From: Acetobacteraceae bacterium | GTDB lineage: Bacteria > Pseudomonadota > Alphaproteobacteria > Acetobacterales > Acetobacteraceae | Direction of reading: 5' to 3' | Length of the DNA: 64,000 bases | NCBI GenBank assembly: GCA_027482245.1 | Contig: JAIXWG010000034.1 | Coordinates: 62,001 to 126,000, forward strand | Part shown: positions 18,801 to 64,000 of the stretch, piece by piece | Layout of the letters: every line of letters begins with the position of its first letter | Numbering within the stretch: the stretch's first letter is position 1 | The notes under the pieces: model-generated | Database searches by the model: none | Seen by the model: only the letters and a program-made list of their open reading frames with translations | What the model was told of the DNA's origin: nothing | Translations under genes and position numbers: made by a program

Positions 18801-18902
18801 CTCCAGGCGGCCGCCGGGCCGTAGGGAAAGCCGGCCCTTTGCCGCATCCTGGTCGTTCTGGTCGCTCATCCGCCGATCCGAACCCGATCTCTCGTCCGTC
18901 AT
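15885..18902 (-). CDS. infB: Translation initiation factor IF-2
   Basis: A 1005-aa GTPase that delivers initiator tRNA to the 30S subunit. The N-terminal third is low-complexity: an Ala/Arg/Glu-rich coiled-coil region followed by Pro/Ala/Gly-rich linkers. The IF2_N module and the G domain follow, with G1 [15 protein letters not shown]2 [11 protein letters not shown]3 DTPGHAAF and G4 NKID, then domains II-IV. The start could be the ATG at 18902 or the ATG at 18869 (MSDQND), which resembles related proteins; neither has a strong ribosome site. It is preceded by ylxR, 90 bp upstream. Confidence 0.96.
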
Positions 18903-18992
18903 GTCTCGCCGCGTGTTGAACGCGGCACCCTGTGCAGTCCGCGCAAGCGCGGGTGAAGTCGGTCCCCGCCCCGGCAACCCGGGACGCGGTAA

Positions 18993-21411: not shown

Positions 21412-21415
21412 GGCG

Positions 21416-22003: not shown

Positions 22004-22046
22004 TGCGCGTTCCAGGCCGACGCGCCCGGGGCCACAGGAAGCGGCC

Positions 22047-22077
22047 AACAAAAAAGGCGGCCCGTTTCGGGGCCACC
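22047..22077 (-). terminator. Intrinsic terminator upstream of rimP
   Basis: On the minus strand a GGTGGCCC / GGGCCGCC stem (one G-T pair, CGAAAC loop) is followed by TTTTTTG. It ends transcription of the upstream 22165-22650 gene. It also implies that the rimP operon either starts from a promoter very close to 22003-22050 or depends on read-through. Confidence 0.8.
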
Positions 22078-22164
22078 TCCCGGTCTCGTCGGAAAGCGAT
22101 CTCTCACCCGCCATATAGACCTGCATTCCGGGCCCCGCAAGCGCGACGGCGTTACGCCGCGCCC

Positions 22165-22650
22165 CTACTCCGCGCCCGGCGGCGTCGGAACCCGCGCCAG
22201 ATGCGTCACGCGGCGGCGGCCATGGGCGCGGGGCGACAGGGCCTCCCCATGCAGGCGGTTGTCGAAGACGCGGGCGCCGCCGCGGGCGACCTGCACCAGA
22301 CAGAAATGCCCGGTGACGCGGGCCAGCCACCAGCCCTCCGGCAGCCCGTCCCGCACCGCGCGGGTCAGCGTCTTGCGGCCCTCCACCGGCCGGGGCTCGG
22401 CGGGCACGCCGGCCAGGTCGAGCGCACCGACCAGGTCGCGCCACCAGGCCGTCACCACCTCCCGCCCCGGCGGGTAGCGGTCGGGCGAGACCTGGGCGAG
22501 CAGCGCGCAGGCGCTGGCATAGTCGAGGCCCGCGGCGGTCGCGACCGCGGTCGGGCCGCACCAGGGGGCGTAGCCGCCACGCTCGCCGGCGAAATCCTCC
22601 GGACGGCGCAGGCGGCGCGGGCGCAGGTCATTGGCGGGCAGCGGCAGCAT
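22165..22650 (-). CDS. Papain-like (C39-type) cysteine-peptidase-fold protein
   Basis: A 161-aa protein of uncertain function. It has the layout of a compact papain-like/C39-like fold: Cys in [14 protein letters not shown] (about residue 31), His in [10 protein letters not shown] (about residue 114) and Asn in VFDNRL about 14 residues later. These would form a Cys-His-Asn triad. There is no signal peptide. It is transcribed alone between trmB and rimP and is followed by an intrinsic terminator. Whether it is a real peptidase is inference from motif spacing. Confidence 0.5.
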
Positions 22651-22729
22651 GGCGTGGGGCCCCGAACGTCGAGGACCTCACGATAGCGTGAATTATACAA
22701 TCACACAATCGAGATCGACGGACAGGCGA

Positions 22730-23443
22730 TCAGGCCTTGCGGAAGATCCACCAGATGGGCTGCCGGCCTTCGCGCCGCGCCTTGGCCTCGTAGCGCGTGC
22801 CGGGCCAGCCCACGGGGCGCTCCGCCGCATGGCGCTCGGCCTGCACGAAGAGCGTCGTGGCCCCGAAAACCTCCTCCACCCAGGCCTGGTAGGTCGGGTC
22901 GTCGCTGGCGATGCGCCATTCGCCGCCGGGGCGCAGCGCGCGGGCGACCAGGGCCAGCAGCTCCGGGTGCACGAAGCGGCGCTTGGCGTGGCGCGACTTG
23001 GGCCAGGGGTCCGGGAACATCAGCATCAGCCGGTCGAGCGAGCCCTCCGGCAGCGCCTGCACCAGGTGCCGGGCATCGGTCGGCCAGAGGCGGAGGTTGG
23101 CGGGCAGCGCGCCCGTGCCCTCCTCGCCCTCTGCGACCAGCCGCGTCAGCAGGGAGCAGAGGCCGTTCTCGAACACCTCGGAGGCGATGTAGGCGACCTG
23201 CGGGTGCGCCGCGACCTGTTCCAGCGCGTGCTCGCCGCCGCCGAAGCCCACCTCCAGCCAGAGCTTCGCGCCCGGCATGCCGAAGGCGGCAAGCGGGTCC
23301 CGTGCCTGGTCGGCGGACAGCCGCAGCCGCGGCAGGGTCACGTCCAGCAGGCGCTGCTGGCGGGGCCGCAGCGGGTGGCCGCGGCGGCGGCCATAGAGAC
23401 GGTCGGGCACGCCCTCGGCAAGCGGCGGACGGTCGGCGGTCAT
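22730..23443 (-). CDS. trmB: tRNA (guanine-N7-)-methyltransferase TrmB
   Basis: A 237-aa SAM-dependent enzyme making m7G46 in tRNA. The SAM-binding motif is WLEVGFGGGEHALEQ, an acidic motif follows (VAYIASEVFENG), and the family signature LMLMFPDPWPKSRHAKRRFV is intact. The C-terminal region has GGEWRIASDDPTYQAWV. It sits directly downstream of metK but is separated from it by a strong terminator, so it likely has its own promoter within the 70-bp gap. Confidence 0.94.
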   Translation of the reverse strand: MTADRPPLAEGVPDRLYGRRRGHPLRPRQQRLLDVTLPRLRLSADQARDPLAAFGMPGAKLWLEVGFGGGEHALEQVAAHPQVAYIASEVFENGLCSLLTRLVAEGEEGTGALPANLRLWPTDARHLVQALPEGSLDRLMLMFPDPWPKSRHAKRRFVHPELLALVARALRPGGEWRIASDDPTYQAWVEEVFGATTLFVQAERHAAERPVGWPGTRYEAKARREGRQPIWWIFRKA

Positions 23444-23459
23444 CGGTCGTTCCTGAACG

Positions 23460-23494
23460 AAAAAGGGGGCGGCGGGCCTGCGCCCACCGCCCCC
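23460..23494 (-). terminator. Intrinsic terminator after metK
   Basis: On the minus strand a 13-bp stem (GGGGGCGGTGGGC with GCCCGCCGCCCCC, one G-T pair, 4-nt loop) is directly followed by TTTTT (23464-23460). It lies 20 bp after the metK stop and 17 bp before the trmB start. Confidence 0.93.
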
Positions 23495-23514
23495 AAGTCA
23501 CGCAAAGCCTGGAA

Positions 23515-24702
23515 TCAGCGGCCGAAGGCGCGACGGATCTCGTCGGCGAGGTCCGTCTTCTCCCAGGTGAAGGTGCCCTTCTCCGCATCCGGCGTGCGGC
23601 CGAAATGGCCATAGGCGGAGGTCGGCACGTAGATCGGGCGGTTCAGGTGCAGGTGCTCCCGGATCCCGCGCGGGGACAGGTTCACCATGCCGTCGATCAC
23701 CTTGGCCAGCTTCGCCTCGTCCACATCCTTGCCCGTGCCGTGCAGGTCGAAATAGACCGAGAGCGGCTTGGACACGCCGATGGCGTAGGAGACCTGGATG
23801 GTGCAGCGATCCGCGAGGCCGGAGGCCACGACGTTCTTCGCCACGTAGCGGGCGGCATAGGCGGCCGAGCGGTCCACCTTCGTCGGGTCCTTGCCCGAGA
23901 AGGCGCCGCCGCCATGCGGCGCCGCGCCGCCATAGGTGTCGACGATGATCTTGCGGCCCGTCAGGCCGCAGTCGCCGTCCGGCCCGCCGATGACGAAGGT
24001 GCCGGTCGGGTTCACGTAGAACTCGTTGTCCGGGCACATCCAGCCCTTGGGCAGGCTGCTCTCGACGATCGGGCGCAGGATGCGCTTGATCTCGGCCTGG
24101 TCCAGGTGCTCCTCGTGCTGCGTCGAGACGACGATGGAGGTGGCGCCCACCGGCTTGCCATCGACGTAGCGCAGCGTGACCTGGGACTTGGCGTCGGGCA
24201 GCAGGCCCTTCACCGCCACGTCGCCGGCGCGGCGCATCTCGCTCACGCGGCGCAGGATCAGGTGCGCGTAGTAGAGCGGCGCGGGCATCAGCTCCGGCGT
24301 CTCGCGGCAGGCATAGCCGAACATGATGCCCTGGTCGCCGGCGCCTTCATCCTTGTTGCCGGCGGCGTCCACGCCCTGCGCGATATGCGCGGACTGCGCA
24401 TGCAGGTGGCACTCGATCTGGGCGTTCTTCCAGTGGAAGCCGTCCTGCTCGTAGCCGATGTCATGGATGGCCATGCGGGCCAGGTGGATCAGCAGTTCCG
24501 GCGTCACGCTGCCGGGGCCGCGCGTCTCGCCCGCCAGGACCACCCGGTTGGTGGTGCACAGCGTCTCGCAGGCCACGCGGGAATAGGGGTCGGCCGAGAG
24601 GTAGGCGTCGAGCACGGTGTCCGAGATGCGGTCCGCCACCTTGTCCGGGTGGCCTTCGGAGACGCTTTCAGACGTGAAAAGGTATTCGCCCTTATCGCGC
24701 AT
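23515..24702 (-). CDS. metK: S-adenosylmethionine synthetase
   Basis: A 395-aa enzyme making SAM from methionine and ATP, the methyl donor for the window's several methyltransferases. Family motifs are [20 protein letters not shown] (ATP/methionine binding), the [12 protein letters not shown] hexapeptide-containing loop, [16 protein letters not shown] and [19 protein letters not shown] (P-loop-like). Length is normal. It is monocistronic: its own promoter (24783-24811) lies 81 bp upstream of the ATG and an intrinsic terminator follows. Confidence 0.98.
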
Positions 24703-24782
24703 GGCTTGGTTCGGCCTCTTGTCGCGGGAGAGCCGGATCGCCCCGGCCTGGCAAGATTGGCCCGGCGGATCCGGGACGGGGG

Positions 24783-24811
24783 CGTATCGCAGTGCAAGAT
24801 GGCGGGGTCAA
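24783..24811 (-). promoter_or_regulatory. Sigma-70-type promoter and structured leader of metK
   Basis: On the minus strand TTGACC (24811-24806) and GATACG (24788-24783) are spaced by 17 nt. The transcript would have a leader of roughly 75 nt. In that leader a CCGGATC arm and a GATCCGG arm (about 24772 down to 24731) can pair around an inner GGCC/GGCC hairpin. No known SAM-riboswitch consensus was recognised. Confidence 0.65.
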
Positions 24812-24845
24812 GGCAGTTGGGCGCCCGCGGCGGGGTTCGATCGCG

Positions 24846-25463
24846 TCAGGGTTGTGGCCAGGGGTCGAGCAGCAGCCCCTCCAGATCCGGCACGGCGCCG
24901 GGGATGGCGAGCTCCACCGGCGGCCGGCCCCGGGGATCGGCATAGGCGCCAAGGGCGTGCCAATCGGCCAGGCTGCGGCGGTGGCCGGCATGGCGGACGG
25001 CGCCCGTGTTCATCGGCGTCAGCCGCGCGGCCGCGCCGTGGCGGTCCAGGAGCCCCGCCAGGTCGATCCGCAGCGCCACCTGCGGCCGGCCGGGGTCCGC
25101 GGCGCGCAGCCCTTCCGCCCGCCGCTGGTCCAGCCAGAAGAAGACATGGCTGTTGACGTGGCGGCGCCAGGCCGCCGGGCTGGTGCCGCTGCCGGCCAGC
25201 GCGCCGGCCAGCTTGCCGTCCGGCATCGCCTGCCGGCGCAGCTCCGCCGTCCCGTGGATGGGGTGGCGGAGCGTGGTGAAGCTCGCGCGGTTCTCCTCCA
25301 GCAGGCGCGTGGCCTCGGGGGGCTCGAACAGCGCGACCAGGGCCTCGGCGCTCAGCAGGCCGTGGCGGCGGATCAGGGGCAGGGCGGCCGGGCTCGTCAG
25401 GTGCCAGGCGACGCCGCCCGTGCGCGCGACCAGGGCCGCCGCGTCCCAGCCCCGCACCGTCAT
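24846..25463 (-). CDS. DUF7002-like protein of unknown function
   Basis: A 205-aa protein. It begins with a small domain carrying WHLTSPAALPLIRRHGLLSA, followed later by HVFFWLDQRR and a basic central region. The H-x-T-x6-I-x2-x-G-L pattern is what one sees at the start of ADP-ribosyltransferase-like proteins of the DarT/DUF4433 and DUF7002 kind. I cannot say whether it is an active transferase. It overlaps the dapB stop by 4 bp, so it is co-translated with that lysine-pathway gene. Its stop lies just beyond the metK promoter. Confidence 0.5.
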   Translation of the reverse strand: MTVRGWDAAALVARTGGVAWHLTSPAALPLIRRHGLLSAEALVALFEPPEATRLLEENRASFTTLRHPIHGTAELRRQAMPDGKLAGALAGSGTSPAAWRRHVNSHVFFWLDQRRAEGLRAADPGRPQVALRIDLAGLLDRHGAAARLTPMNTGAVRHAGHRRSLADWHALGAYADPRGRPPVELAIPGAVPDLEGLLLDPWPQP

Positions 25464-26233
25464 CGCATGCCGAGCACATCCATCATGGAATAGAGACCGG
25501 CCGGCTTGCCGTGCAGCCAGAGCGCCGCGCGGATCGCGCCCGTGGCGTAGGACCGCCGGTCGAAGCTGCGATGGGTGAGCGCGATCTGCTCCGTGCCCGA
25601 GGCGAAGAGCAGCGTGTGTTCCCCCACCACCTGGCCGCCGCGCAGCGCCGCGAAGCCGATCGGGCCGGTCTTCCGGGCGCCGGTATGGCCATCCCGGCCG
25701 GAGTCGATCCCCACCTCCTCCAGCGTCTTCCCCCGCCCCTTGGCGACGGCGCGGCCCATGGCGATGGCGGTGCCCGACGGCGCGTCCACCTTCTGGCGGT
25801 GGTGCATCTCCAGGATCTCGGCGTCGTACTGCTCGGGCGGCAGGGTGGCGCCCATGCGCTCCGCGATGGCCAGCACCAGGTTCACGCCGGTGGAGTAGTT
25901 GGCGGCGTAGCAGATCGGCGCCTGCTTCGCGGCGGCGGCGACGGCCGCTTCCTCCTCCAGCGTCAGGCCGGTGGTGCCGAGGACATAGGCCTTGCCCGAA
26001 GCGGCGGCCGCGGCGGCATGGCCGGCGGCGGCGGAGGCATGGGTGAAGTCGATGACGACGTCGCTGGCGGCGAACAGCGCCGCGGCATCGGGCAGCAGCG
26101 CGGCGGGCAGGCCGGCAGCCTCGGCGCCCGGCCGGTCGATGCCGCCGGCGAGCGTCGCGCCGGCCTGCACCGTTTCCTCCGCCAGCAGCCGCCCCATGCG
26201 GCCGGCGATGCCACAGATGCCGATGCGGACCAT
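25460..26233 (-). CDS. dapB: 4-hydroxy-tetrahydrodipicolinate reductase
   Basis: A 257-aa NAD(P)H-dependent enzyme of the diaminopimelate/lysine pathway. The N-terminal Rossmann motif is IGICGIAGRMGRLLAEE. The central DFTHASAAAGHAAAA and the catalytic/substrate segment EILEMHHRQKVDAPSGTAIAMG (the His-His and Lys of the E-x-H-H-x-x-K-x-D-x-P-S-G-T signature) are complete, and the C-terminal NAD region GEHTLLFASGTEQI is present. It is followed by the 4-bp-overlapping DUF7002-like gene and probably transcribed together with moeB and dsrE upstream. Confidence 0.97.
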   Translation of the reverse strand: MVRIGICGIAGRMGRLLAEETVQAGATLAGGIDRPGAEAAGLPAALLPDAAALFAASDVVIDFTHASAAAGHAAAAAASGKAYVLGTTGLTLEEEAAVAAAAKQAPICYAANYSTGVNLVLAIAERMGATLPPEQYDAEILEMHHRQKVDAPSGTAIAMGRAVAKGRGKTLEEVGIDSGRDGHTGARKTGPIGFAALRGGQVVGEHTLLFASGTEQIALTHRSFDRRSYATGAIRAALWLHGKPAGLYSMMDVLGMR

Positions 26234-26291
26234 GCGAACCCCCCGTTTCCCGATCGCACAGGCTTCGCCCGCGCCCCGCGAGGGGTCAAGG

Positions 26292-26666
26292 CTACAGGCT
26301 GACGATCTGCCCCGGCCCGACGGCGGCGAGGAAGGTGACCACCCCCGCCACCTCCACCCCCGGCGCGAGGGAGGCGGCCGCCAGCCCCTCCGCCTTCAGC
26401 CCGGCCTCGCAGGCGATCAGGCGGATGCCGAGGTCCCGGGCGGCCTCCATCAGGGGGGCGATGCCGGCGACCCCGCGGGATTCCAGCAGCGCCTCCCGCG
26501 CATCCTCCACCAGCGGCGCGGTCGCCAGGAACAGGCGGCAGCCGCCATTGGTGGCGAAGAGGGTGACATCCCGCCCCACCGCCGCCGCGCCCGTCGCCAG
26601 CACCAGGGCGTAATGCGCGGCCTCATGATCCCCCTGCCGCAGCAGGATGCCGAGGGGCGTGGTCAC
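26292..26666 (-). CDS. DsrE-family small protein
   Basis: A 124-aa DsrE/DsrF-like alpha/beta protein: LGILLRQGDHEAAHYALVLATGAAAVGRDVTLFATNGGCRLF at the start, LIACEAGL (with the Cys where sulfur carriers of this fold place theirs) and a hydrophobic end. DsrE-fold proteins handle persulfide sulfur or act as small redox carriers. The GTG start at 26666 overlaps the stop of the E1-like ThiF protein, so the two are co-translated. This suggests a sulfur-activation pair. Confidence 0.72.
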   Translation of the reverse strand: MTTPLGILLRQGDHEAAHYALVLATGAAAVGRDVTLFATNGGCRLFLATAPLVEDAREALLESRGVAGIAPLMEAARDLGIRLIACEAGLKAEGLAAASLAPGVEVAGVVTFLAAVGPGQIVSL

Positions 26667-27511
26667 ACTGCGCCCGCCGGGGCCCCGGCGATCGAGCAGG
26701 CCGGCGCCGCGACCTCTCCATGGGCCGAGAGGTCGTGGATGGTCGCCGCCTCCCCGCACAACGCGCAGGCGGGGTCGCGCTTCAGCTTCACCGTGCGGAA
26801 GCGCGCATCCAGCGCGTCCCACAGCAGCAGGCGGCCCGACAGGTCCTCCCCGATGCCCATGATCAGCTTGAGCGCCTCCGTCGCCTGCAGCGTGCCCATC
26901 ACGCCGGTGACGGCGCCGAGCACGCCGGCTTCCGAGCAGGTGGGCACCAGCCCCTCCGGCGGCGGCTCCGGGTGCAGGCAGCGGTGGCAGGGATGCGGGT
27001 GGCCGAGATGCGACTTGAAGACGGAGAGCTGCCCCTCGAACCGCAGCACCGCGGCCGAGACCAGCGGCCGGCCCAGCAGGTGGCAGGCATCGCCCAGCAG
27101 GAAGCGCGTGGCGAAATTGTCGGTGCCGTCGCAGACCAGGTCGTAGCGGGGGATGTTCTCCCACGCCCACGCGGCGTCGAGCCGCCTTGCGTGGATCTCC
27201 ACCTTCACTTCCGGGTTCAGCGCGCCGATCGTCTCCGCCGCGCTGTCCGCCTTGTTGCGGCCGATGCGGGCCGTGGCATGGGCAACCTGGCGCTGGAGGT
27301 TCGACAGCTCCAGCCGGTCGTCATCGATGATGCCGATCGTGCCGACGCCCGCCGCGGCCAGGTAGAGCGCCAGCGGCGAGCCGAGCCCGCCCGCGCCCAC
27401 CAGCAGCACCCGGGCCGATCGCAGGCGCGACTGGCCGATGGCGCCGACTTCCTCCAGCAGGATGTGCCGGGAGTAGCGGCGGAGCTCCGCATCCGTGAAG
27501 TCGAGGTCCAT
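26663..27511 (-). CDS. MoeB/ThiF-type adenylyltransferase (E1-like)
   Basis: A 282-aa HesA/MoeB/ThiF protein. It has RYSRHILLEEVGAIGQ, the ATP-binding VLLVGAGGLGSPLALYLAAAG, the DDD and NLQRQ motifs, the adenylation-site Asp in VCDGTDNFATRFLL, and two zinc-binding CxxC pairs (CHRCLHP and CALCGE). No C-terminal rhodanese domain. These enzymes adenylate the C-terminus of a ubiquitin-like sulfur carrier (MoaD or ThiS). No carrier gene is in the window. The ATG at 27511 (MDLDFTD) matches the family start. Confidence 0.9.
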   Translation of the reverse strand: MDLDFTDAELRRYSRHILLEEVGAIGQSRLRSARVLLVGAGGLGSPLALYLAAAGVGTIGIIDDDRLELSNLQRQVAHATARIGRNKADSAAETIGALNPEVKVEIHARRLDAAWAWENIPRYDLVCDGTDNFATRFLLGDACHLLGRPLVSAAVLRFEGQLSVFKSHLGHPHPCHRCLHPEPPPEGLVPTCSEAGVLGAVTGVMGTLQATEALKLIMGIGEDLSGRLLLWDALDARFRTVKLKRDPACALCGEAATIHDLSAHGEVAAPACSIAGAPAGAV

Positions 27512-27958
27512 GCAGGGGATATGGGCGCGCCCGGGGGGCCGGCGCAATACGGCCCGCGCCACCCGCGAGCCTAAAGCCCACTAACCCTTTTTAGCACCTT
27601 TAGCACCGATTCCGCGGCCCCCGGGCCGCGGCGGTGGTCGGCGAGGGGGAGGGGCGAAGACAGACCTCCGGCGCGTGATCCGCTGAACATAACGCGAACG
27701 GCAACGGAAGCGCCATCTTTTTCGTGACGGGTCGGGAACCCTTTCGAGGGTTGGCGCGCTGCGGCGCCTGGGTTATGCCCTCGCCCCCGCCTTCCGGCGG
27801 GTCGCCCCAGCCGCGCGCCAGAATGGCCCGCCGGGGCTCCGCGCCCCAGCGCGCGGGCGGGGCCCCTGGCCCCACAGGCACGGCCCCCTACGGGTTAACG
27901 CCACGGTAGCAACCCCGGCGCCACATGCGCCGGCGATCGCAGGAGGTGATGGCGAAGC
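27512..27958. other. 447-bp divergent intergenic region with repeats and hairpins
   Basis: No convincing gene. It separates the divergent moeB-like and SGNH genes. It contains a 9-bp direct repeat, TTTAGCACC twice in a row (27590-27607), next to a perfect CCGCGG-type hairpin (27612-27631; 8-bp stem, 4-nt loop), and GC-rich sequence beyond. The region near moeB (27575-27607) is unusually AT-rich for this genome and probably holds its promoter. Confidence 0.5.
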
Positions 27959-28618
27959 ATGCGCATGCCCAAGGGCCCGTGGCTGTCTGGTGGCTTCCTG
28001 TCCGGCCATGCCGGCCGGCGCCCCAGCCCTGTCCGCCGGCATGCCCCCTGGTCGGTGCTGCTGCCGCTGCTGGCCGGGCTGATGGCGTCCCCCGCCCTGG
28101 CCCAGAACCGCTGCCCGGACGTGCTGCTGGGCGACAGCCTGGCGGTCGGCATGGCCCCCTTCGCCCAGGCCCAGGGGTTCGAGGTGATCGCCCGCGGCGG
28201 CGCCGGCATCACCTGGCTGCGCCAGCAGGAACCCCGCTGCGCCCGCCGCCTCGTCCTCGTCTTCGGCACCAACGACCTGCGCGGCATGCGGAACGAGGAA
28301 GCGGACAGCTACCTCCGCCAGATCAGCGCCGTGATGGAACGCTGGCCCGCCGCCCGCATCATCTGGGCGACGCCGGGCTGCTTCAACCGCGACGCGCAGC
28401 TGGAACAGGGCAGCACGGTGCTGGACCGCGTGCTGGCCCGCCGCGTGAACCAGGCCGATGACGCGCTGCGCCACCTGCCCGCCATCAACCGGGGGCGGGA
28501 GGCGCGCTGCACCTATGAATCGCATGACGGCGTGCACCCGACCGGGGAGTGGTACCGCAACTGGTGGTCCGCCCTGATGCGGTCGATGGAGCGCACCCAG
28601 GTCGCGGGAATGCGCTGA
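27959..28618 (+). CDS. Exported SGNH/GDSL-type hydrolase
   Basis: A 219-aa protein with a long basic N-region and a hydrophobic stretch ending ...LLAGLMASPALAQN, a likely signal peptide cleaved after AQ or ALA (about residue 49). The SGNH blocks follow: block I LLGDSLAVGM (nucleophile Ser), block II Gly in RGGAGIT, block III FGTNDLRG (Asn), and block V DGVHPTG (Asp-x-x-His). It is probably a periplasmic esterase or an acetyl-group-modifying enzyme on a surface glycan; the substrate is unknown. The strong AGGAGG lies 12 nt before the ATG, so the exact start is not certain. Confidence 0.75.
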   Translation: MRMPKGPWLSGGFLSGHAGRRPSPVRRHAPWSVLLPLLAGLMASPALAQNRCPDVLLGDSLAVGMAPFAQAQGFEVIARGGAGITWLRQQEPRCARRLVLVFGTNDLRGMRNEEADSYLRQISAVMERWPAARIIWATPGCFNRDAQLEQGSTVLDRVLARRVNQADDALRHLPAINRGREARCTYESHDGVHPTGEWYRNWWSALMRSMERTQVAGMR

Positions 28619-28671
28619 GGCCAGGCCCGCAACCCGCTTGACCGCGGGGCGGGCACGGGAGCATGACGTAG

Positions 28672-55060: not shown

Positions 55061-55963
55061 ATGCTCGATGCCCGGAACCTCAACCGCCTCGCCTATTTCG
55101 CCGCCGTCGTGGATGCGGGGTCCTTCACCGCGGCGGCGCAGCGGCTGGGCATCACCAAGGCCGTCGTCAGCCAGCAGGTCGCGCGGCTCGAACGCGAAGT
55201 CGGCACCACCCTGCTGGTCCGGACGACGCGCCGCGTGGCGCCGACCGAGGCCGGCCGGGCCTTCCATGCGCGCTGCACGCTGATCCTGCGGGAGGCTGAG
55301 GATGCCTTCGACGAGCTCGGCCAGGTAGCGACGGAACCCACCGGCCTGCTGCGGCTGACCGCGCCCTACGACTACGGGACGGCGATGGTCGTGCCGGCGG
55401 TGACCGAATTCACCCGTCGCCATCCCGGCTGCACCGCGGAGATCCTGCTCAGTGACCGGCGCCTCGATCTCGCGGGCGGGCAGCTCGACCTTGCCATCCG
55501 CGTGGGCTGGGTGACGGAGCCCGGCCTGCAGGCCCGGCGCATCGGCGGCTTCCGCCAGTTGCTGGTCGCCGGTGCCGCGCATGCGGACGCTGCCGCGATG
55601 GAGGACCCGGCGGAGGTCGCGCGGCTGCCCTTCGTGGCGCTCACGGCGCTGCGCGATCCGCTGGCCTGGCAGTTGACGCGCGGCGAGCTGGAGCGCCGGG
55701 CGATCCGGTTCGCCGCCACGATCGTGACGGACACATCGCCCGCGGTCCTTGCCGCCGTCATGGCCGGCGCCGGGCTCGGCGTGCTGCCGGACTTCCTCGT
55801 CGCACCGCTGATCGCCGAAGGTCGCCTGCACCACGTCCTGCCGCAGTGGAGCCTGCCTTCCGGCGGCATCCATGCGGTATTCCCGGCGCAGCGCTACCGT
55901 CCCGCGCGCGTCCGGGCCTTCGTCGAGCTGCTGGCGCGTGCTGAACGGGCGAGGTCAGGCTGA
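55061..55963 (+). CDS. LysR-family regulator (CrgA/YafC-like)
   Basis: A 300-aa LysR regulator: HTH LNRLAYFAAVVDAGSFTAAAQRLGITKAVVSQQVARLEREVGTTLLVRTTRRVAPTEAGRAF, then an effector domain with GLLRLTAPYDYGTAMVVPAV and GAGLGVLPDFLV. Divergent from the DsbA-like and MBL genes, its likely targets. It is the last chromosomal-backbone gene before the tRNA fragment. Confidence 0.92.
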   Translation: MLDARNLNRLAYFAAVVDAGSFTAAAQRLGITKAVVSQQVARLEREVGTTLLVRTTRRVAPTEAGRAFHARCTLILREAEDAFDELGQVATEPTGLLRLTAPYDYGTAMVVPAVTEFTRRHPGCTAEILLSDRRLDLAGGQLDLAIRVGWVTEPGLQARRIGGFRQLLVAGAAHADAAAMEDPAEVARLPFVALTALRDPLAWQLTRGELERRAIRFAATIVTDTSPAVLAAVMAGAGLGVLPDFLVAPLIAEGRLHHVLPQWSLPSGGIHAVFPAQRYRPARVRAFVELLARAERARSG

Positions 55964-56020
55964 CACCGCCCAAGCCGGCCTTGGCGCGGTGGCGGCAATC
56001 AGCTGGAAGCGTGGGGGAAT

Positions 56021-56067
56021 TGGCGGACCCGATACGATTCGAACGTACGATCTTTGCCTTCGGAGGC
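56021..56067 (-). other. 3' fragment of tRNA-Arg(CCG): attachment-site remnant
   Basis: On the minus strand this reads as the 3' 47 nt of a tRNA. From the 5' side: the CTCCGAA anticodon loop (anticodon CCG), GGCAA 3' anticodon stem, 5-nt variable loop, GTACG stem, TTCGAAT T-loop, CGTAT stem, CGGGTCC acceptor strand, discriminator G and encoded CCA (56023-56021). The D-arm, the 5' anticodon stem and the 5' acceptor strand are absent. The break within the anticodon stem is the typical crossover boundary of integrases that target tRNA 3' halves. Confidence 0.8.
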
Positions 56068-56487
56068 TGACGATTGCCACGACGTCGTCAGGGACAACAG
56101 CAGCATGAGCAGGGCTCTGAGGGCTCCTGCTGGTCGTTCAAGTCGGAACGAACGCCCTTGTAGCGGGATGTTGGCGGGACGTGGTTTGCGTTCCCGCCCA
56201 TCTACCTTACGCCCCAACTTCCTGCTCGGCTCCATGTTGAGGCTCCCTTATCGCCTCCGACTTCAGTCGCTTGCGGAGGCCGGCCATCCATCGGCTTGGC
56301 ACCTTTGCCAAGTCGAGGGATGGCGGCGGCCGCACCGACAGTCCAGCCCCCGTCCCACCACATCCAGCGAGAAGCCTTAAAGACAGGATCTTTCTCTGGG
56401 CGGCGCCGCACGCGTGATCAGCTTTGCCTGCCAAACTTAGCCGCTCGGCAGGCGGTCTTGCTCAGTCCGTGGATCAGCATGTCACTA
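56068..56487. other. 420-bp region between attachment site and ISL3 element, no intact gene
   Basis: Only short open frames with no recognisable domain. Base composition is slightly lower in GC than the backbone. It is likely degraded element DNA. No promoter or RNA was recognised. Confidence 0.45.
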
Positions 56488-58140
56488 GGGCTCTGTCGCA
56501 GTTCTCGTGCTGACGGGAGTTCATGCTGGGACGATCAACCTGGCGCGCAGCAGATCAGTTTTCCCACGTGCATACATCTGGCGCCTGACGAGCTTGAGCC
56601 TGGTGACGCTGCCTTCGGTCGTGCCATTGGACCAGGGCTCGGTGAGCGCAGCTTTGACCGCTGCCACGTCGTTGGCGATGCCACGGCCGAAGGAGGCCGG
56701 CAGGCCGCCGGTTGTGTCAGTGATCAACGCCGGCAACGCTTCGGGCGTGCGGGCGCGGGCAAATGGTGAAAGCGCTCGACCAGGTCTCGGGCCGCAACAA
56801 GGGCGGCCACCGAAGCCTCGACCGCCGCGACCATCACAGCGTCGGCGCGGGCCAGCAGGTCGCGGCCGGCCAGCATCGCTCGCGCGATTGTCCTGGTCGC
56901 CGGCACCCGCCCCGAGGCGCCGCCATCGGTCTGCTCGCTGCGCCGGCGCCGCGTTGCCCATTCAGTGGTGGCCCGCAGGCAGCTGCAGAAGCCCTCCCCG
57001 TGCAGCCGCCGCCAGATCTCGGTGGCGTTGTGGCACTCGGCGTCCCACGTGGCCTCGAGCCGCGGCAGCCAGGGCGCTAGAGTGCTCGTGCGGCTTAGGA
57101 ACACCTCGTCCTCGCGTTAGCGTAGCACGGCCCGTACCAGCTTTCTGCTGCGGCCAGTGCGGCGGGCGATTTCCTTGGGGCGTGCCGGCAGCCGCCATGG
57201 TCCGGATCGCCTCGTTTGCCTCCCGGCGCCGCAGGTAGCCCTCGTACTGCAGGCGCTCGGCCGCGCTGAGCAGGTCCGGCTTGAGCGCCCCGCGGCTGAG
57301 GGCGCGCTTGATAGGTCACGGCGCGCTCCGCACTGCCTCCAGGAAGGCCGCACTGGCGTTGTCCATCAGATGCCACCGGTCGGCGACCTGAACCGCCCCC
57401 GGCGAGGCGTCGCCGACGGCGCTAGCGAAGCCGCCAGCGCGGTCGCGGGCGACAACGCCGATCTCAGGATGCGCGCGCAGCCAGGCCTTGACCGTGTTCG
57501 TGTCGCGGTCGGGCAGCAGGTCGGCGATGCGACGCCTTTCCAGATCGCACAGAATGGTCCCGTAGCGCTGGCGGCGTCGCCACGCCCATTCGTCAATGCC
57601 GAGGGCACGTATGGGGCCAGCCGCTTTCGGCGCCTGACGACGGACGACGCGCAGCAGCGTGTCCTTGCCGACTGGCAGCATCAGCCGCTGCGCCAGGCCT
57701 GCGGCAGGGCGGCCGCCGAGTGCCACGCCGAGATGCCCGACGAGGCCGTCCAGGCGGGCGGTGCGCCGTCCGGATCGCCGCGCGACCTCGGTCGGCAGCG
57801 GCTCGGCGAAGGTCTGCCGCGGGCAGCCAGCCGCCAGACACCGAAGGCGGCGCAGTTGCAGGAGCAGTTCAACGGCACGCCCGTGCGAGGGCAGGTCGAG
57901 CAGCCGCCGCTCATAACGGCTGTGCAGCCGGTTGGTCGGCCCGCCGCAGGCCGGACAAGGACGCGGCGCCTCCGGCGCATGGACGGGAATGATGACGCGA
58001 TCTGCCACGGGCTCGATGGCATCCACGACGAGACCTGGCGGCAGCAGAGGCCGTAGGTCCAGTAGGCGCATGGATGCCGCTCCCTCCACGAAAGGAAGCA
58101 CCATCAACGTTCAACCAGCACGGAAAGTGCGACAGAGCCC
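56488..58140 (-). mobile_element. ISL3-family insertion sequence (inactive)
   Basis: A 1653-bp element bounded by terminal inverted repeats: GGGCTCTGTCGCA at 56488-56500 and its complement TGCGACAGAGCCC at 58128-58140, continuing imperfectly inwards (GTGCTG against CAGCAC). It contains one broken transposase gene on the minus strand. No matching target duplication is visible at the ends (TGTCACTA on the left, CGTTTCCG on the right), so one flank may have been rearranged. Confidence 0.85.
56521..58107 (-). pseudogene. ISL3-family transposase, frameshifted
   Basis: The N-terminal part (58107 or 58071 to 57316) has the zinc-finger-like RPCPACGGPTNRLHSRYERRLLDLP, the CLAAGCPRQTFAEPLP region and DDE-core pieces RALGIDEWAWRRRQRYGTILCDLE and ADRWHLMDN. 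It then stops at 57316. The rest continues in other frames: YEGYLRR and TRAVLR pieces near 57120-57290, WATRRRRSEQTDGG with PATRTIARAML (about 56760-57000), and the C-terminal WSNGTTEGSVTRLKLVRRQMYARGKTDLLRARLI (to 56521). At least three frame changes separate parts of what was one protein of about 520 residues. Confidence 0.85.
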
Positions 58141-58161
58141 CGTTTCCGCGCCGATTAACAC

Positions 58162-58810
58162 AAGCGCTTCAAGGTCTATCCATTGGCTTCTTCCACCCGA
58201 CATCGCCGAGGTCAGACGGAGCAGGGTAAAATCCACCTCTTCATTGCCATCGACCGCCCATCGAAGTTCGCTTTCGCCCAATTGCACGAGCGCGCCATCA
58301 CACGAGCGCGCCATCACACGAGCACGCCACCACGCGCATCGCCGCCGAGTTCCTTCCGGCATTACTGCAGGCTGTACCCTACCGTGTGAACAATGCCTTC
58401 CCCAACTACGGTCTGCACATCACCACGCCAGGCAATGAGGCGTGAGTTGCCAGCCTCACCCGGGAGACGATCAGCCGAGGCGAGCCTTTCCGTGCCCATT
58501 CCTTCGACCTTGCCTGTGCGCAGAACCGCATCAAGCACTGCCTAACCAAGCCGTTCCATCCGTGAACGAACGGCCAGGTCGAGAGGATGAACAGGACGCT
58601 CAAGGAAGCCACAGTTCACCGCAACAACTACGTCAGCCACGACGAGTTGCGCAGTCATCTCGCCCTGTGCCTCGACGCCTACAACTACGCGAGGCGCCTC
58701 ATAACCCTGAAGGGGTTAACCCCTACGGGCTCATCTGCCGGCCCTGGGCCGCAGAGCCCTACAGGTTCTCCACAAATCCGCATTGCCAAATGCCGGGACC
58801 AGATATCTAG
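58162..58810 (+). pseudogene. IS481-family transposase remnant
   Basis: The C-terminal portion of an IS481-type transposase, in pieces: KRFKVYPL, then DIAEV (frame change), QGKIHLFIAIDRPSKFAFAQLHERA, VPYRVNNAFP, a stop near 58443, EPFRAHSFDLACAQN with LTKPFHP, then NGQVERMNRTLKEATVH, SHDELRSHLA, DAYNYARRL and LKGLTPTG, and the end region WAAEPYRFSTNPHCQMPGPDI to the stop at 58810. It begins close to the right end of the ISL3 element; its N-terminal half is missing. A 16-bp triplication lies inside it. Confidence 0.82.
58286..58333. repeat. Three tandem copies of a 16-bp unit
   Basis: ACGAGCGCGCCATCAC occurs at 58286-58301 and 58302-58317, and with two changes at 58318-58333. It lies inside the IS481 remnant, where the intact family sequence would have a single copy (LHERA region). 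It is likely a replication-slippage expansion. Confidence 0.85.
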
Positions 58811-58841
58811 GCGTTATTCCCTATCAACCGGGCGGGCCGCC

Positions 58842-60065
58842 TTACCCGCCGTAGAGCGCGATAAACTCACCCAGGCGCCCTGCGAGTTCGCCTGCCATGT
58901 CGCGGCGACGCATCGCGTCGAAGCGGGGAATGGCGAAGGCCATCGTCTCCGCCAGGGCCCTCGGATCGCCTGCGGCGAAGGTGAAGCCGTCCAGACCGCC
59001 GCGCACCTTCTCCGCCATGCCGCCAATATCGGAGACGATCAGCGGCCTGCCGATGGTCAGGGCCTCCTGTATCACCAACGGCGAGTTCTCCCACCAGATC
59101 GAGGGCATGACGATCCAGTCCACATCGCTCATCAGCCGCACCAGGTCATCGCGACCGTAGCGTCCGGTCCAGCGCACGGCTGGCGCTTGCTGACGCATCG
59201 CCGTCTCAAACCAGAGTTCGAAGTCGCGAGGCATATAGCCGGGCACGCCGTGCAACGTGAGCGTCGCATCCTCGCAGCCCAGGGTGCCGCGGAGGATCGA
59301 GAAGGCCTCGACCAGCGTCCTCACCCCCTTGAAGACGCCGATGCTGCCGAAGAAGCCGAAGGCAGCGCGCCGCGCACCGGCCGCCAGAGGACGTGGCGGC
59401 ACGCGTTGCAGCAGCGGCACATAGTTCTCTATCATCACGATGTGGCCCGCCGGGACGCCCCATTCGATGTAGCGTTGGCGCAGGAACTCGCTGGGCGCGA
59501 CCAGCATGTCGGCCTTTAACAGATTGGCCAAGACGTAGCGGCGGCGCGCTGCGAATTCGTCCGGCGTGCGCTGAGGGTAGCAGGCCGCGCAGGCCTCGGG
59601 ACTACTGCTACTGCATAGCTGCAGACTGCCTGTCTTCACCATCTGGCCGTTATTGGCGCAGATGGCAAGAAACTCGTGTAGCGTAACGATCAAGCGTGCG
59701 CGTGGCAATATGCGACGCACCAGCGCCATCGCTTCGATGCCGCTACGAATATAGTGGTGCATGTGGACCACATCGGGCTGCTCGATGCGCAACAGCTCCG
59801 CAAATGCATCCAAGGCGCCGAGGTTCTGTTGCGAGAGAAGGAATACATCCATCTCTCCAGTCGGAAGCTCCCACTCATGCGCGCTCGCGCCCCAAGGAGC
59901 CAGCCGCTCACCCATCAGGCGGGGCAGAACGCGGGGCGCAGCGAATTGCGCTGTCCAGCCGGGCGCGGCACGCATCGCGCGAAACAGCTCAAAGGCGGCG
60001 AGTTCCGCTCCGGTCGGGCTCTCGTCGGGATGTCCATGCGCTACAACAAGAACCTTGCGGGTCAT
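58842..60065 (-). CDS. Family 4 glycosyltransferase
   Basis: A 407-aa GT-B-fold glycosyltransferase. The N-terminal domain begins TRKVLVVAHGHPDESPTGAE (the G-x-x-x-S/G-A-E loop of GT4) with VVHMHHYIRSGIEAMALVRR. A Cys-rich segment, LQLCSSSSPEACAACYPQRTP, resembles the cysteine cluster of some GT4 proteins. The C-terminal domain has AAFGFFGSIGVFKGVRTLVEAF, DVDWIVMPSIWWENSPLVIQEAL (E-x7-E type) and RPLIVSDIGGMAEKV. It overlaps the upstream GT2 gene by 4 bp. Both probably build one surface glycan in the island. Confidence 0.88.
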   Translation of the reverse strand: MTRKVLVVAHGHPDESPTGAELAAFELFRAMRAAPGWTAQFAAPRVLPRLMGERLAPWGASAHEWELPTGEMDVFLLSQQNLGALDAFAELLRIEQPDVVHMHHYIRSGIEAMALVRRILPRARLIVTLHEFLAICANNGQMVKTGSLQLCSSSSPEACAACYPQRTPDEFAARRRYVLANLLKADMLVAPSEFLRQRYIEWGVPAGHIVMIENYVPLLQRVPPRPLAAGARRAAFGFFGSIGVFKGVRTLVEAFSILRGTLGCEDATLTLHGVPGYMPRDFELWFETAMRQQAPAVRWTGRYGRDDLVRLMSDVDWIVMPSIWWENSPLVIQEALTIGRPLIVSDIGGMAEKVRGGLDGFTFAAGDPRALAETMAFAIPRFDAMRRRDMAGELAGRLGEFIALYGG

Positions 60066-62122
60066 GTCAAGGATCCCGATCGCAGGGGTACCAACGTCTG
60101 GAGGTATTTGCGCCACCGCCGCGCATGCAGCAGCATGTTGCAGAGCGTCAGCGCGTAGCGCCATTCCGAGCTGCCGATACGCACGAGGGACTGGCGCTCG
60201 AAATGAATGAGAGTGACGCGCGGATCATACCAGATCCGGTGGCCTGCCTCGATGAGGCGGTGACAGAGATCGGCATCCTCGAAATCTCCGATCACATAAT
60301 CCTCCGACAGACCGCCCAGTGCGGCGTAAAGGTCGCGGCCGACCATCAGGCAGGCACCGGTCACGGCTGGCACCTGGCGCGGCAGGGTGGTGCGGTCGCG
60401 CTCGGCGGCCTCGCCCTTGAGTGGATGGTCGCAGATCCATGCCTCCAGGTTTGGCTCTGGTTGGAAAGCCATGCCGACATGCTGAAGGGTCCCGTCGTCG
60501 AAGATCAGGCGGCAGCCCAGAGCGCCGCAATGCGGCAGCTCCTGGTGGCTGGCGACCAGATGGTCGAGCCAACCGGGCGCCAGTGGCAGCACATCGGAGT
60601 TGAGCAGCAGCAGCCGTTCGCCGCGCGCGGCGCGCGCGCCGGCATTGGTGGCTCCCGAATAGCCGAGGTTGCGTGACAGGCGCAGCATGCGCAGCGGCAC
60701 GCCGTAGACGCGGAAGGCGACCTCCGCCAGCTTCATGGCCTCCGCCGCGCGCTCCGGATCGTCCAGGACGTAGATCAGTTCCGCCTGGGCCAGCAGCCCC
60801 GGGTCGTTCGAGAAGAGAGCGCATTGCAGGAGGATCCAGTCCATCCGGCCGTAGAGTGGCACGACGAGCGAGACACCCGGCCGTGCGGGCGGTGTGCCCA
60901 GCACCACCTCATTCACGTTGACCGGAGCCTGCTTGGCCATCGCCCAGCAGGCCTCGATCGCCGGCAGGATCTGCTCGCGCAGCAGTGCCGGCGCGCCATC
61001 CGCGGCTGGATCCAAGCGAGAGAGGATGGCCTTGATCGCTTCGCGGGGCTCCAGCAGAAGCCGACCGGGCATGGGGCGCTCGATCACGCTGCCATCGGCC
61101 AGGCGCAGTTCCAGCGCGCCGCTCGCTGTAGCGGCGCCCGCACCTGGTACGAAGGCCGCCAGGCCCGTCCGCCCGATGCGGGTGGTGGGCGCCAGCTTCG
61201 GTGGCGCGAGGCTGGCATGGCGCACGCCATCCTCCAGCACCGTGAGGCCGGTGATAGCAAGGCCGGCGCTCGGCGCAGTGGCGAAGACCATGGCGCCGAC
61301 CCCGGTGATGCAGAAGGTAGTCTCGACCGCCGTGGTGCCGATCGCGACGGGCTCGGCCCGGCGCCGGCGCAGCAAGGGACGCACCACCCGGTGCCAGGTC
61401 AGGCGCGCGGCCCGGCGCAGGAAGCTGGCTAGGCGGGGCCGCGCGCCAATCCAGTTCAACGCGACGCGGCTGACGCGCCAAGCCGTGCTTTCCTCAATGG
61501 TGCGGCGGCGCGCGGCTTCCGCAGCAAGGCTCGCCTCCGTCCGGGCCACGCTGCGCTGTAGCTGCTCCGTCTCGCGCGCCGCCGTGCGACGCTGCGTGTC
61601 CAACTCCAAGCGCGCGGCTAGGCGCTCGCCCAGGGCCTCGAACAGGGCGCTGGCGGCCTCCGCTTGCGCCAGATCACGCGCCTGCGACAGAAGGTAGGCG
61701 AGCGCACCGGCTCCCAGCCCCCGTGGGGCCGAGATGCGCATACCCTGGCCGAAGGCAAGCAGCAGCGAATCCCGCCCTGCTGCTGGTGCCAGGGGGCCAA
61801 GTGGCCCCATCTCAAGCAGGAGCCCCGGTGCAGAGGCGAGGCTGGGGTCCAGACCTGGTCCCAGGATGCGCAAGGGAAGGGCACCTTCCGCTTCGCGCAG
61901 TCCGGCACCGCGCAGCGCCTCGGCGACCGCAGGCGCCCCTGCCTCGTCCAGCGCTGCCGTGCCCAGGGCAGCGGCAAGCCACGCCAGGAAGGGGTAGACC
62001 AAGATGAGATCCGGCTGCAGCGGGAAGCCGGGAGAGTGCCGCGCGGCATCCGCCAGCGCTTGCGACCACCAACGCGTCATGTCCGGCATCGTCGCGGAAC
62101 CCGCGCCTGCTTCGATGCTCAT
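60062..62122 (-). CDS. Large glycosyltransferase: helical N-terminal part plus GT2 domain
   Basis: A protein of about 686 aa. The C-terminal third is a GT-A family 2 domain: VSLVVPLYGRMDWILLQCALFSND, LIYVLDDPERAAEA, NLGYSGATNAGARAARGERLLLLNSDVLPLAPGWLDHLV (DxD-equivalent N-S-D), LGCRLIFDDGTLQHVGMAF and DFEDADLCHRLIEAGHRIWYDP. The first 400 residues are different: an Ala/Leu-rich region, a coiled coil (about residues 165-225), a basic segment and a beta-rich stretch. The start is uncertain among several ATGs (62155, 62122, 62089). It ends inside the start codon of the GT4 gene. Confidence 0.85.
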   Translation of the reverse strand: MSIEAGAGSATMPDMTRWWSQALADAARHSPGFPLQPDLILVYPFLAWLAAALGTAALDEAGAPAVAEALRGAGLREAEGALPLRILGPGLDPSLASAPGLLLEMGPLGPLAPAAGRDSLLLAFGQGMRISAPRGLGAGALAYLLSQARDLAQAEAASALFEALGERLAARLELDTQRRTAARETEQLQRSVARTEASLAAEAARRRTIEESTAWRVSRVALNWIGARPRLASFLRRAARLTWHRVVRPLLRRRRAEPVAIGTTAVETTFCITGVGAMVFATAPSAGLAITGLTVLEDGVRHASLAPPKLAPTTRIGRTGLAAFVPGAGAATASGALELRLADGSVIERPMPGRLLLEPREAIKAILSRLDPAADGAPALLREQILPAIEACWAMAKQAPVNVNEVVLGTPPARPGVSLVVPLYGRMDWILLQCALFSNDPGLLAQAELIYVLDDPERAAEAMKLAEVAFRVYGVPLRMLRLSRNLGYSGATNAGARAARGERLLLLNSDVLPLAPGWLDHLVASHQELPHCGALGCRLIFDDGTLQHVGMAFQPEPNLEAWICDHPLKGEAAERDRTTLPRQVPAVTGACLMVGRDLYAALGGLSEDYVIGDFEDADLCHRLIEAGHRIWYDPRVTLIHFERQSLVRIGSSEWRYALTLCNMLLHARRWRKYLQTLVPLRSGSLT

Positions 62123-62284
62123 GCGTGCGTCAGGCCTGCACATGACCGACATCAACCGACATTCTCATCATGGCCGGCCGAATCTGGCATGCGGGAGAGG
62201 GGTGTACGCATGTGATGGAGTGGGCATTGGCGCAGTGAACGCAGGGCATATGACGAACTTGTCCGAGGGGCCGACATTCAGGGT

Positions 62285-62470
62285 TCCCTATTCGCTGGAG
62301 GTCCGAGGGTGGATGACGGCGTTGATCAGAGTAGGTCGAGCGCGACAGGCTCTCTCGCGAGAGATCGCACCCACGGCGAAGATGAAGCTCCGGCTTGAGA
62401 ACCATCGTCCGAGTCAGGAGCGCGACATCCTGACGAAGCCTCCAGCGTCCGGCGCTGCACGCGCCACGCC
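62285..62470 (+). pseudogene. IS3-family OrfA remnant
   Basis: In one frame YSLEVRGWMTALIRVGRA followed by LSREIAPTA resembles the HTH start of IS3 OrfA proteins (Y-P-x-E-F-R ... L-V-R-A-G-R ... L-A-R-E-F-E-P-T-A). After a gap, LRLENHRPSQERDILTK resembles the leucine-zipper end (R-E-N-R-Q-L-R-Q-E-R-D-I-L-x-K). About 20 residues are missing between the two, and no OrfB follows. Confidence 0.55.
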
Positions 62471-62489
62471 GCGTCGCTCGGCACCTAAT

Positions 62490-62712
62490 GCGTTCTCCAT
62501 AGGCACACCGAGCTGCAGGCCTCGAACCCGACCGATCGCCCTGACGACGAGATTGAGCGCTGCGCGGCGGCCGTCGGCATCTTCGCGAGCGAAGCCACCA
62601 TGATCCGCCTCGTTGGCGCCTTTCTCCTCGAGACGTCGGACGAACGGGCTACCCAACGCGCCCGCCCCGTCGCCCTGGCAGCCATCAGCCCCATAGCCTC
62701 CCCCCAGGCTGT
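62490..62712 (+). pseudogene. IS256-family transposase C-terminal remnant
   Basis: In frame with 62600: LQASNPTDRPDDEIERC, AAAVGIFASEATMIRLVGAF, LLETSDERATQRARPVAL and AAISPIASP. This aligns with the C-terminus of Mutator/IS256 transposases (N-P-I-E-R-L-N-x-E-I-K-R ... V-G-I-F-P-N-E-x-A-I-x-R-L-V-G-A). Only the last 70 or so residues remain. It directly abuts the IS3 fragment and ends at the stop of the amino-acid-binding-protein gene. Confidence 0.72.
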
Positions 62713-63839
62713 CAGCGTAGCGGCGGCGCGTATTGCAGGCCGCCCTGGTTCCACAGCAGGTTCAGCCCGCGCTGGATGCCGAGCGGGCCTATATTCCGCT
62801 CCCAGACCTCCCGGTAATTGCCGACCTGGCGGATGACACGGGCTCCCCAATCCGCATCCAGGCCGAGCAGTTCCCCCGAACGACCAACACGGCCGAACAG
62901 ATGCTGTACGTCGCTGCTGGCGCTTGCGAGGCTGGTGGCCGCACCGCCTTGCAATTCTGCGACGGCGCTGCTGTCTAGTCCGAGCTCTTCCGCGGTAAGC
63001 ATCAGGAAGTGCGTCCACCGCGCGACCCTGAACAGGCGCTGTGCATCCTCGCGCACAGCCGGTCCGAGCGGCTCCTTGGAGATAACCTCGAACAGCACCG
63101 CATAGCGCGACTCGCCCGAACCTTGCTGCGCCACGAAGCCGGCGAGCGACGCCGTGTCGCTGGTCATGGCATCGCATTGCTGGCCTAGGAAGGCGGCGCG
63201 CACGGCATCGGAACTAGCCGCCGGAACGGCGGTAATCCGCAACCGCGTGCTGCGCACGTAGTCGGCCAGATTTCGCTCGGAGGTGGTGCCCGCCTCAACG
63301 CAGACCGTCGCGCCGTCGAGCTGCTGTACGCGGGCCACGCCACGGTCACGCCGGACCAGGAAGCCCTGGCCGTCATAGTAGGTCACGGCGGCAAAGATCG
63401 CGCCCTCCCCGGCATCGCGTTCCAGCGTCCAAGTGGTGTTGCGCGCCAGGATGTCGACATCGCCAGCCCGGAGCCGCTCGAAACGCTCCGCGGCCGGCAT
63501 CGGCACAAACCGGACCTTGCCCGCATCCCCTAGAATCGCCGAGGCCAGCGCGCGGCAGTAGTCGACGTCCAGCCCGCGCCACACGCCACGTCCCTCTCGA
63601 ACCGCGAAGCCCGGCGTTGCCGGAGAGACGCCACACAGCAAGTGGCCGCGCGCCCGGATGGCATCCAGCGCATCGGGCGCTGCGGCCCTTTCTGACGCCG
63701 GCCGGCCGGCCGCCGCGGTGCCAGACTGTGCCACCAGCGATTGCGCCGCTGCGACGCCTTGCGGTCCCGCGACTAGCGCCGTCAGCGCCAAAGCCGCGGC
63801 GATGCGGCGAGCCGCCTTCATCTGTCGTGTTTCACTCAT
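62712..63839 (-). CDS. General L-amino-acid ABC transporter binding protein (AapJ/BztA-like)
   Basis: A 375-aa family 3 solute-binding protein. A signal peptide is followed by a low-complexity Ala/Ser linker, then LDAIRARGHLLCGVSPATPGFAVREGRGVWRGLDVDYCRALASAILGD, LRAGDVDILARNTTWTLERDAG, GATVCVEAGTTSERNLADY, and the C-terminal VGNYREVWERNIG with GLNLLWNQGGLQYAPPLR. These are AapJ landmarks. ATG 63839 has GGGAAG upstream and overlaps the stop of the gene to its right (ATGA). Permease and ATPase genes are absent here. It lies among glycosyltransferases in the island; binding of an amino acid is inferred from family. Confidence 0.88.
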   Translation of the reverse strand: MSETRQMKAARRIAAALALTALVAGPQGVAAAQSLVAQSGTAAAGRPASERAAAPDALDAIRARGHLLCGVSPATPGFAVREGRGVWRGLDVDYCRALASAILGDAGKVRFVPMPAAERFERLRAGDVDILARNTTWTLERDAGEGAIFAAVTYYDGQGFLVRRDRGVARVQQLDGATVCVEAGTTSERNLADYVRSTRLRITAVPAASSDAVRAAFLGQQCDAMTSDTASLAGFVAQQGSGESRYAVLFEVISKEPLGPAVREDAQRLFRVARWTHFLMLTAEELGLDSSAVAELQGGAATSLASASSDVQHLFGRVGRSGELLGLDADWGARVIRQVGNYREVWERNIGPLGIQRGLNLLWNQGGLQYAPPLR

Positions 63840-64000
63840 CGGCTTACTTCCCATTCCTCGCTCTGGATGCGCTTCGATTCAGTAGGCGGCCCGCCGCGCG
63901 CGGCTGCGCGTGCGATCATTCGCATGAAGCCAAGCAGCGGGCGGTTGTCCGTCAAGCTGTACATGAAGGCGTTCTCTGCGAAGGCGTCGCGCAGGTAGTG
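63836..64000 (-). CDS. C-terminal end of an unidentified protein (cut by window edge)
   Basis: The last 54 residues of a minus-strand gene entering from the right: HYLRDAFAENAFMYSLTDNR at the edge and IQSEEWEVSR at the end. The stop (63838-63836) overlaps the ATG of the amino-acid-binding-protein gene, so they are co-translated. The piece is too short for me to recognise the family. Confidence 0.6.
   Translation of the reverse strand, partial: HYLRDAFAENAFMYSLTDNRPLLGFMRMIARAAARGGPPTESKRIQSEEWEVSR

Follow-up and report, generated by a model that had tools for sequence, protein, structure and literature searches.

We analysed a 64,000-nt stretch of an Acetobacteraceae bacterium (hereafter the window), which corresponds to G000:C55:62001-126000 in a 6.39 Mb draft genome of 71 contigs, and found that window positions 56021-56066 are the displaced 3′ half of a tRNA-Arg(CCG) gene. 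An island was probably inserted at this tRNA gene by a tyrosine integrase, with the displaced half as its right attachment site (attR) and an intact tRNA-Arg(CCG) on contig C43 as its other end. Throughout, G000 denotes the source genome, G001-G030 the other genomes, L numbers loci, and C a contig.

The displaced half of tRNA-Arg(CCG) and its intact partner

An earlier note on this DNA had read a tRNA-Arg(CCG) 3′ piece without its 5′ half as the left edge of an integrated island. The piece was confirmed as a 46-nt fragment covering tRNA positions 32-77, and ARAGORN called no tRNA on the window, in keeping with a gene of which only half is present. Rfam likewise reported no tRNA in window 55900-56400, where its two matches were both far under their gathering scores. 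A pattern search of the genome allowing up to three mismatches identified two places, C55:118021-118065 (exact) and C43:300-344 (one mismatch), while the reversed-pattern control gave 0 matches. The place on C43 belongs to the sole intact tRNA-Arg(CCG) found in the genome (C43:300-376, minus strand), which lies in the orientation predicted by the note and is identical to the fragment at 45 of 46 nt, the shared piece reaching 48 nt when the AT behind CCA is counted. The single mismatch is at window 56051, and all 14 intact tRNA-Arg(CCG) genes compared carry another base at the matching position, indicating that the fragment has drifted. Among 35 tRNAs tested, taken from 30 tRNA loci (45 tRNA matches were listed), Arg(CCG) alone has a piece in C55:62001-169288.

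The composition of the DNA changes at the fragment. As estimated with a simple codon-usage gene finder, the coding fraction was 0.937 in window 1-28600 (G+C 0.721) and 0.921 in window 28601-56020 (G+C 0.714), so that the 28.6-56 kb stretch is host-like, and it was 0.634 (G+C 0.655) from window 56068 to the end of C55, that is, in the 51 kb right of the fragment that we count as island DNA on this contig.

Gene order in two relatives fits the two presumed ends. In G004, the block of window 18001-28619 was located at C24:324627-335231, 34.6 kb 3′ of the tRNA-Arg(CCG) at C24:369868-369944, and in G006 the block of window 22159-28630 was located at C11:425160-431634, 17.9 kb 3′ of the tRNA at C11:407159-407235, in both cases in the same orientation as in the window. 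By eye, this downstream block carries metK, rimP and nusA. On the other side, trp genes, read by eye as pyrF, trpF, trpB and trpA, lie 5′ of the tRNA on C43, and the DNA 5′ of the tRNA in G004 and G006 matches C43 at about 85-93% identity. With a C43-like side, the tRNA and the block in this order, the fragment falls where an attR should sit, with the rebuilt tRNA on one side of it and the downstream block on the other. Both this order and the composition step support the fragment as the left edge of the island. The reading by eye of a 46-nt tRNA scar as an island edge holds true, and the relatives agree with most of the predictions drawn from it.

Taken together, we propose that a tyrosine-integrase element would have entered tRNA-Arg(CCG) by recombination at its anticodon loop. 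The 3′-half copy carried by the element would have rebuilt the tRNA that is now on C43, and the original 3′ half would have been displaced to the opposite end of the element, becoming attR. The island would then be what lies to the right of the fragment, and it may have gathered insertion sequences that are now broken. In islands of the Islander type, the regenerated tRNA gene and the displaced fragment are the endpoints, and the crossover subsites include the anticodon loop, as described in PMC4383910. The pair formed by the window and C43 resembles this type in having a displaced fragment in the genome, a complete, regenerated tRNA gene that shares this 3′ half but for one substitution, and a break in the anticodon-loop class, and the island DNA is absent from relatives at the tRNA site. 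It differs in its endpoints, which are on two contigs, and in the integrase, which was not found next to the fragment or anywhere on the 51 kb. The mechanism of tRNA-gene islands is long established, and the window island is a degenerate case of a known kind.

Elements and an end motif at tRNA-Arg(CCG) in relatives

A scan of the named genomes for the 46-nt core identified 62 loci, 49 intact and 13 truncated, by a search that needed the complete core and would miss shorter pieces. In the 13 truncated loci, identity extends by no more than 0-5 nt beyond the core on its 5′ side. A tyrosine-integrase match accompanies the fragment in 12 of them, 134-190 bp to its 5′ side and oriented away from it. 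One of the 12, L119, has a weak integrase match and no open reading frame (ORF) of 200 aa; the thirteenth, L139, has no integrase on the 244 bp available on that side. L149 and G030 share a contig. In a 30-mer search, which leaves the 5′ boundary of a fragment unfixed, pieces of 45-50 nt from tRNA position 30-33 were found in G009, G028 and G030 with an integrase beside each, G009 and G028 being cases beyond the 13 truncated loci. Phage_integrase is matched by all three integrases, and Arm-DNA-bind_3 additionally by two, those of G009 and G030. Across the wider family, a 33-nt piece of this tRNA is matched with up to two mismatches in 155 of 397 genomes, in some of them twice, intact genes and fragments being pooled in this count. 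As a separate observation, the tRNA-Arg(CCG) fragment on the Belnapia rosea contig of L119 (1-834) stands beside a perhaps decayed integrase (37%, partial match), a possible parallel to the window.

The window fragment shares with the Acetobacteraceae tRNA-Arg(CCG) elements (G009, G028, G030, L124, L134 and L157) the same tRNA and a nearly identical 5′ boundary of the fragment. However, the integrase of these elements adjoins the fragment and reads away from it, whereas none was found 134-190 bp 5′ of the fragment in the window, and for this reason we do not file the window island as an intact member of their class. In most relatives the integrase start follows the fragment where the window has 56067-56488, and paired arm-like repeats were seen by eye in most of the relatives' fragment-side sequences, while none is visible in that of the window. 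The segment 56060-56500 is unique among 20 genomes, bar one 30-bp match in one genome.

We identified a motif, approximately TTTTCAn(4-5)TTAG, directly behind the CCA of the C43 tRNA. After 6 duplicate loci and 4 with less than 26 nt of flank were dropped, the motif was found behind all 11 intact tRNAs whose genomes contain a fragment as well, behind 12 of 43 other intact tRNAs, C43 among the 12, and behind 8 of 15 relatives' fragments. As controls, it matched 29 of 20,000 random 26-mers from this genome and 544 of 20,000 shuffled flanks. The Fisher values, which are exploratory, were 9e-6 without C43 and 1.4e-5 with it. The window flank, scanned with a start at the last A of CCA, one base too early, carries no such motif. 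The presence of the motif on C43 and its absence from the window flank fit element DNA behind the C43 tRNA and the original chromosome behind the fragment.

Based on these results, we tentatively suggest, at somewhat less than even odds, that elements land at tRNA-Arg(CCG) one after another across the Roseomonas-like Acetobacteraceae, that they share an end signature and that islands persist there after integrase loss, as in the window. The integrases of these elements are only about 40-80% alike. If the suggestion is true, the signature behind an intact tRNA could separate occupied from empty sites without locating the other end, and the missing integrase together with the common signature suggests how hot-spot islands become permanent parts of a genome. 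A literature search on tRNA-Arg genomic islands with an integrase in Roseomonas found none, a search on such islands in Acetobacteraceae led to a paper on Methylobacterium, and the passages of a paper on integration hot spots in Sinorhizobium meliloti (PMC11476347) contain no mention of CCG.

Weighing the island against other explanations

Several observations weigh against an island that runs from the window fragment to C43. C55 and C43 are not joined. That both ends belong to one element, which would run unbroken from the one to the other, is what we infer; the gene order fits in G004 and G006 and not in G009. The block lies near the tRNA in only two (G004 and G006) of the eight relatives searched. 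In G009, block pieces share a contig with the tRNA (C1:1438141-1438217) at a considerable distance: about 77 kb separate the tRNA from the closest piece, window 26.3-27.5 kb, found on the 5′ side of the tRNA, and about 0.5 Mb separates it from the others. Block and tRNA are on different contigs in G007, G008, G010 and G013, and G001 gave no tRNA-Arg(CCG) match at two mismatches. Nor do relatives conserve, next to this tRNA, the 27 kb to the left of the fragment (window 28.6-56 kb); the pieces of this stretch are inverted in G004 and elsewhere in G006 and G013. For the LysR-family gene that closes the stretch, only 2 of the 14 other genomes searched in the genus gave a match at E <= 1e-60 (67% and 54% identity). 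The description of this side as ordinary backbone therefore stands for composition and not for gene order. The comparison with relatives suggested in the earlier note yielded no genome in which an intact tRNA-Arg(CCG) is followed at once by the flank found left of the window fragment; no 3′ flank of the intact genes compared equals this flank, and no empty site was found. The motif expression, moreover, was written after the flanks had been inspected.

The integrase is a further point on this side. None was found near the window fragment by tblastn with four integrase queries or by a profile search, and C55 carries no Phage_integrase match (E <= 1e-5) anywhere. The profile comprised eleven ORFs beside relatives' fragments and the G009 and G028 integrases and was run against stop-split six-frame pieces; on C55 it gave nothing convincing, the best pieces having E values of 0.49 and 0.52. 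Neither the 51 kb on C55 nor C43 carries an integrase match. All 16 integrase matches of the genome were compared with the four queries as candidates for the cognate enzyme and set aside, none being a close relative; the best is only 37% identical and lies near a tRNA-Met piece. The earlier note had expected the integrase gene probably beside one end, and this did not hold for the fragment or for C55, while the intact end offers only 299 bp. There, the 3′ end of the C43 tRNA faces the contig break, and the 299 bp assembled up to it have no integrase match. Joining C43 leftwards to another contig was attempted and abandoned, since its first 126 bp, IS-end-like (insertion-sequence-end-like) by eye, are common with the start of C46 at 98% and allow no unique join. 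The island would therefore have lost its integrase, unless the gene is at its opposite end, past C43. Loss, rather than a place in the unassembled part, would be our choice of the two. The fragment is probably the displaced attR of such an island, and an island without its integrase is probably fixed in place.

The fragment could also be the outermost attR of an old, dead element, with the C43 tRNA end belonging to a younger one. We regard this serial insertion as possible but not favoured; it is a variant of the single-island explanation, and the probabilities of the two overlap. The motif behind about half of the relatives' fragments suggests serial insertion, as it is expected of an older element's end, and the substitution missing from the 14 intact genes and the lack of an integrase agree with great age. 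However, besides the intact gene, one piece only of tRNA-Arg(CCG) was found in the genome at up to three mismatches. That an element with an integrase of another class, lying beside the intact tRNA just past the C43 contig edge and not beside the fragment, made the scar is in our view rather unlikely. A different integrase does stand beside the intact tRNA-Arg(CCG) of L122 (same contig as G017), and the sequence left of 56488 is, by eye, unlike the attachment arms of the common class. Yet the four queries match an integrase at only 1 of the 49 intact loci, though many have little flank, and the 299 bp beside the C43 tRNA end in the sequence common with C46 without such a match.

An assembly artefact or a chance partial duplication would be in keeping with a 71-contig assembly and with a composition change at the fragment. 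We consider it very improbable, as a 45/46 match truncated like 13 of the 62 named loci is not chance, and an artefact would not predict the gene order found in G004 and G006. An island inserted at tRNA-Arg(CCG), with its attR in the window and its rebuilt tRNA on C43, thus remains the explanation that we prefer.

Contents of the proposed island and other tRNA scars

The features around the boundary are listed below.

Features at the island boundary, in window coordinates
Feature	Position	Strand	Basis or remark
LysR-family regulator, last gene left of the boundary	55061..55963	+	profile and homology searches
presumed original chromosomal flank (B′)	55961..56020	.	presumed role; without TTTTCAn(4-5)TTAG-like motif
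displaced 3′ part of tRNA-Arg(CCG), presumed attR core	56021..56066	-	tRNA positions 32-77, anticodon loop to CCA
inter-element stretch, ~420 bp, fragment to ISL3 copy	56067..56488	.	no integrase match
broken ISL3-family insertion sequence	56489..58139	-	terminal inverted repeats start 56489, end 58139; broken transposase
rve-type (IS481/IS3-like) transposase remnant	58150..58830	+	58587-58829 by weak Pfam match, below cut-off; wider extent by eye
glycosyltransferase, GT4-like	58842..60164	-	domain search
protein with C-terminal GT2 glycosyltransferase domain	60062..62122	-	domain search
IS256/Mutator-type transposase remnant	62501..62716	+	weak match, E 0.0032, below cut-off
amino-acid-binding periplasmic protein (SBP_bac_3)	62712..63854	-	domain search

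The neighbours named in the earlier note were recovered as far as the LysR regulator, the ISL3 copy, the two glycosyltransferases and the SBP_bac_3 protein are concerned, whereas the rve-type (IS3/IS481-like) and IS256 tails stayed below the cut-off, the rve-type match having an E value of 0.0016. The amino-acid-binding protein is not a lone one, as the note had it, since a second SBP_bac_3 protein is encoded further right on C55. The 8 bp outside the two ends of the ISL3 copy differ by eye, which would fit an adjacent deletion.

Of 34 genes predicted right of the fragment, 30 were scanned for protein families. These included glycosyltransferases, the two SBP_bac_3 proteins, bestrophin-like, MreB-like and two-component proteins and a GH8 enzyme. 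Neither phage structural nor conjugation families occur among the matches of the 30. C55:146001-166000 has matches in 5 of 9 relatives at 67-86%, none near the tRNA, the longest being 4.8 kb in G004:C42 at 74%. When C55:98001-end was compared with the tRNA 3′ flanks in relatives, short or IS-type matches only were obtained. A plasmid search with window 56000-64000 (near mode) and 56060-56500 (distant mode) gave no match. Stretches of the island with sensor kinases and a GH8 enzyme (L036 3520-19503) match G004:C42 at 71-79% identity, and this contig is not the one that carries the tRNA-Arg(CCG) of G004. The MreB-like gene (L035 19218-20000 into L036) is predicted to encode 346 aa, of which the last 260 aa were scanned. 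A bestrophin-like protein is encoded near a DUF6524 protein and two weak Pro_CA_2 (carbonic-anhydrase-like, below cut-off) proteins (L035 4116-4916, 266-1664 and 8888-9367).

Other tRNA scars were identified in the same genome, sought only at loci with integrases and hence not a full scar count. Integrases on C52, C13 and C22 have nearby pieces of tRNA-Met(CAT), tRNA-Thr(CGT) and tRNA-Arg(CCT), respectively, each of which begins at tRNA position 30-33. At tRNA-Met(CAT), a probable element of about 10 kb (L093, G000:C52; 42-117, 8717-9862 and 10050-10093) carries the intact tRNA, an integrase and a displaced 44-nt 3′ fragment on one contig. The tRNA-Thr(CGT) piece, which runs to the 3′ end (L104, G000:C13, 7828-7873), and the tRNA-Arg(CCT) piece, covering positions 32-71 (L042, G000:C22, 2838-2877), perhaps mark further tRNA islands. 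In addition, a G017-like integrase (28% identical) adjoins tRNA-Glu(TTC) at L098 (G000:C6, 2258-3307 and 3500-3574).

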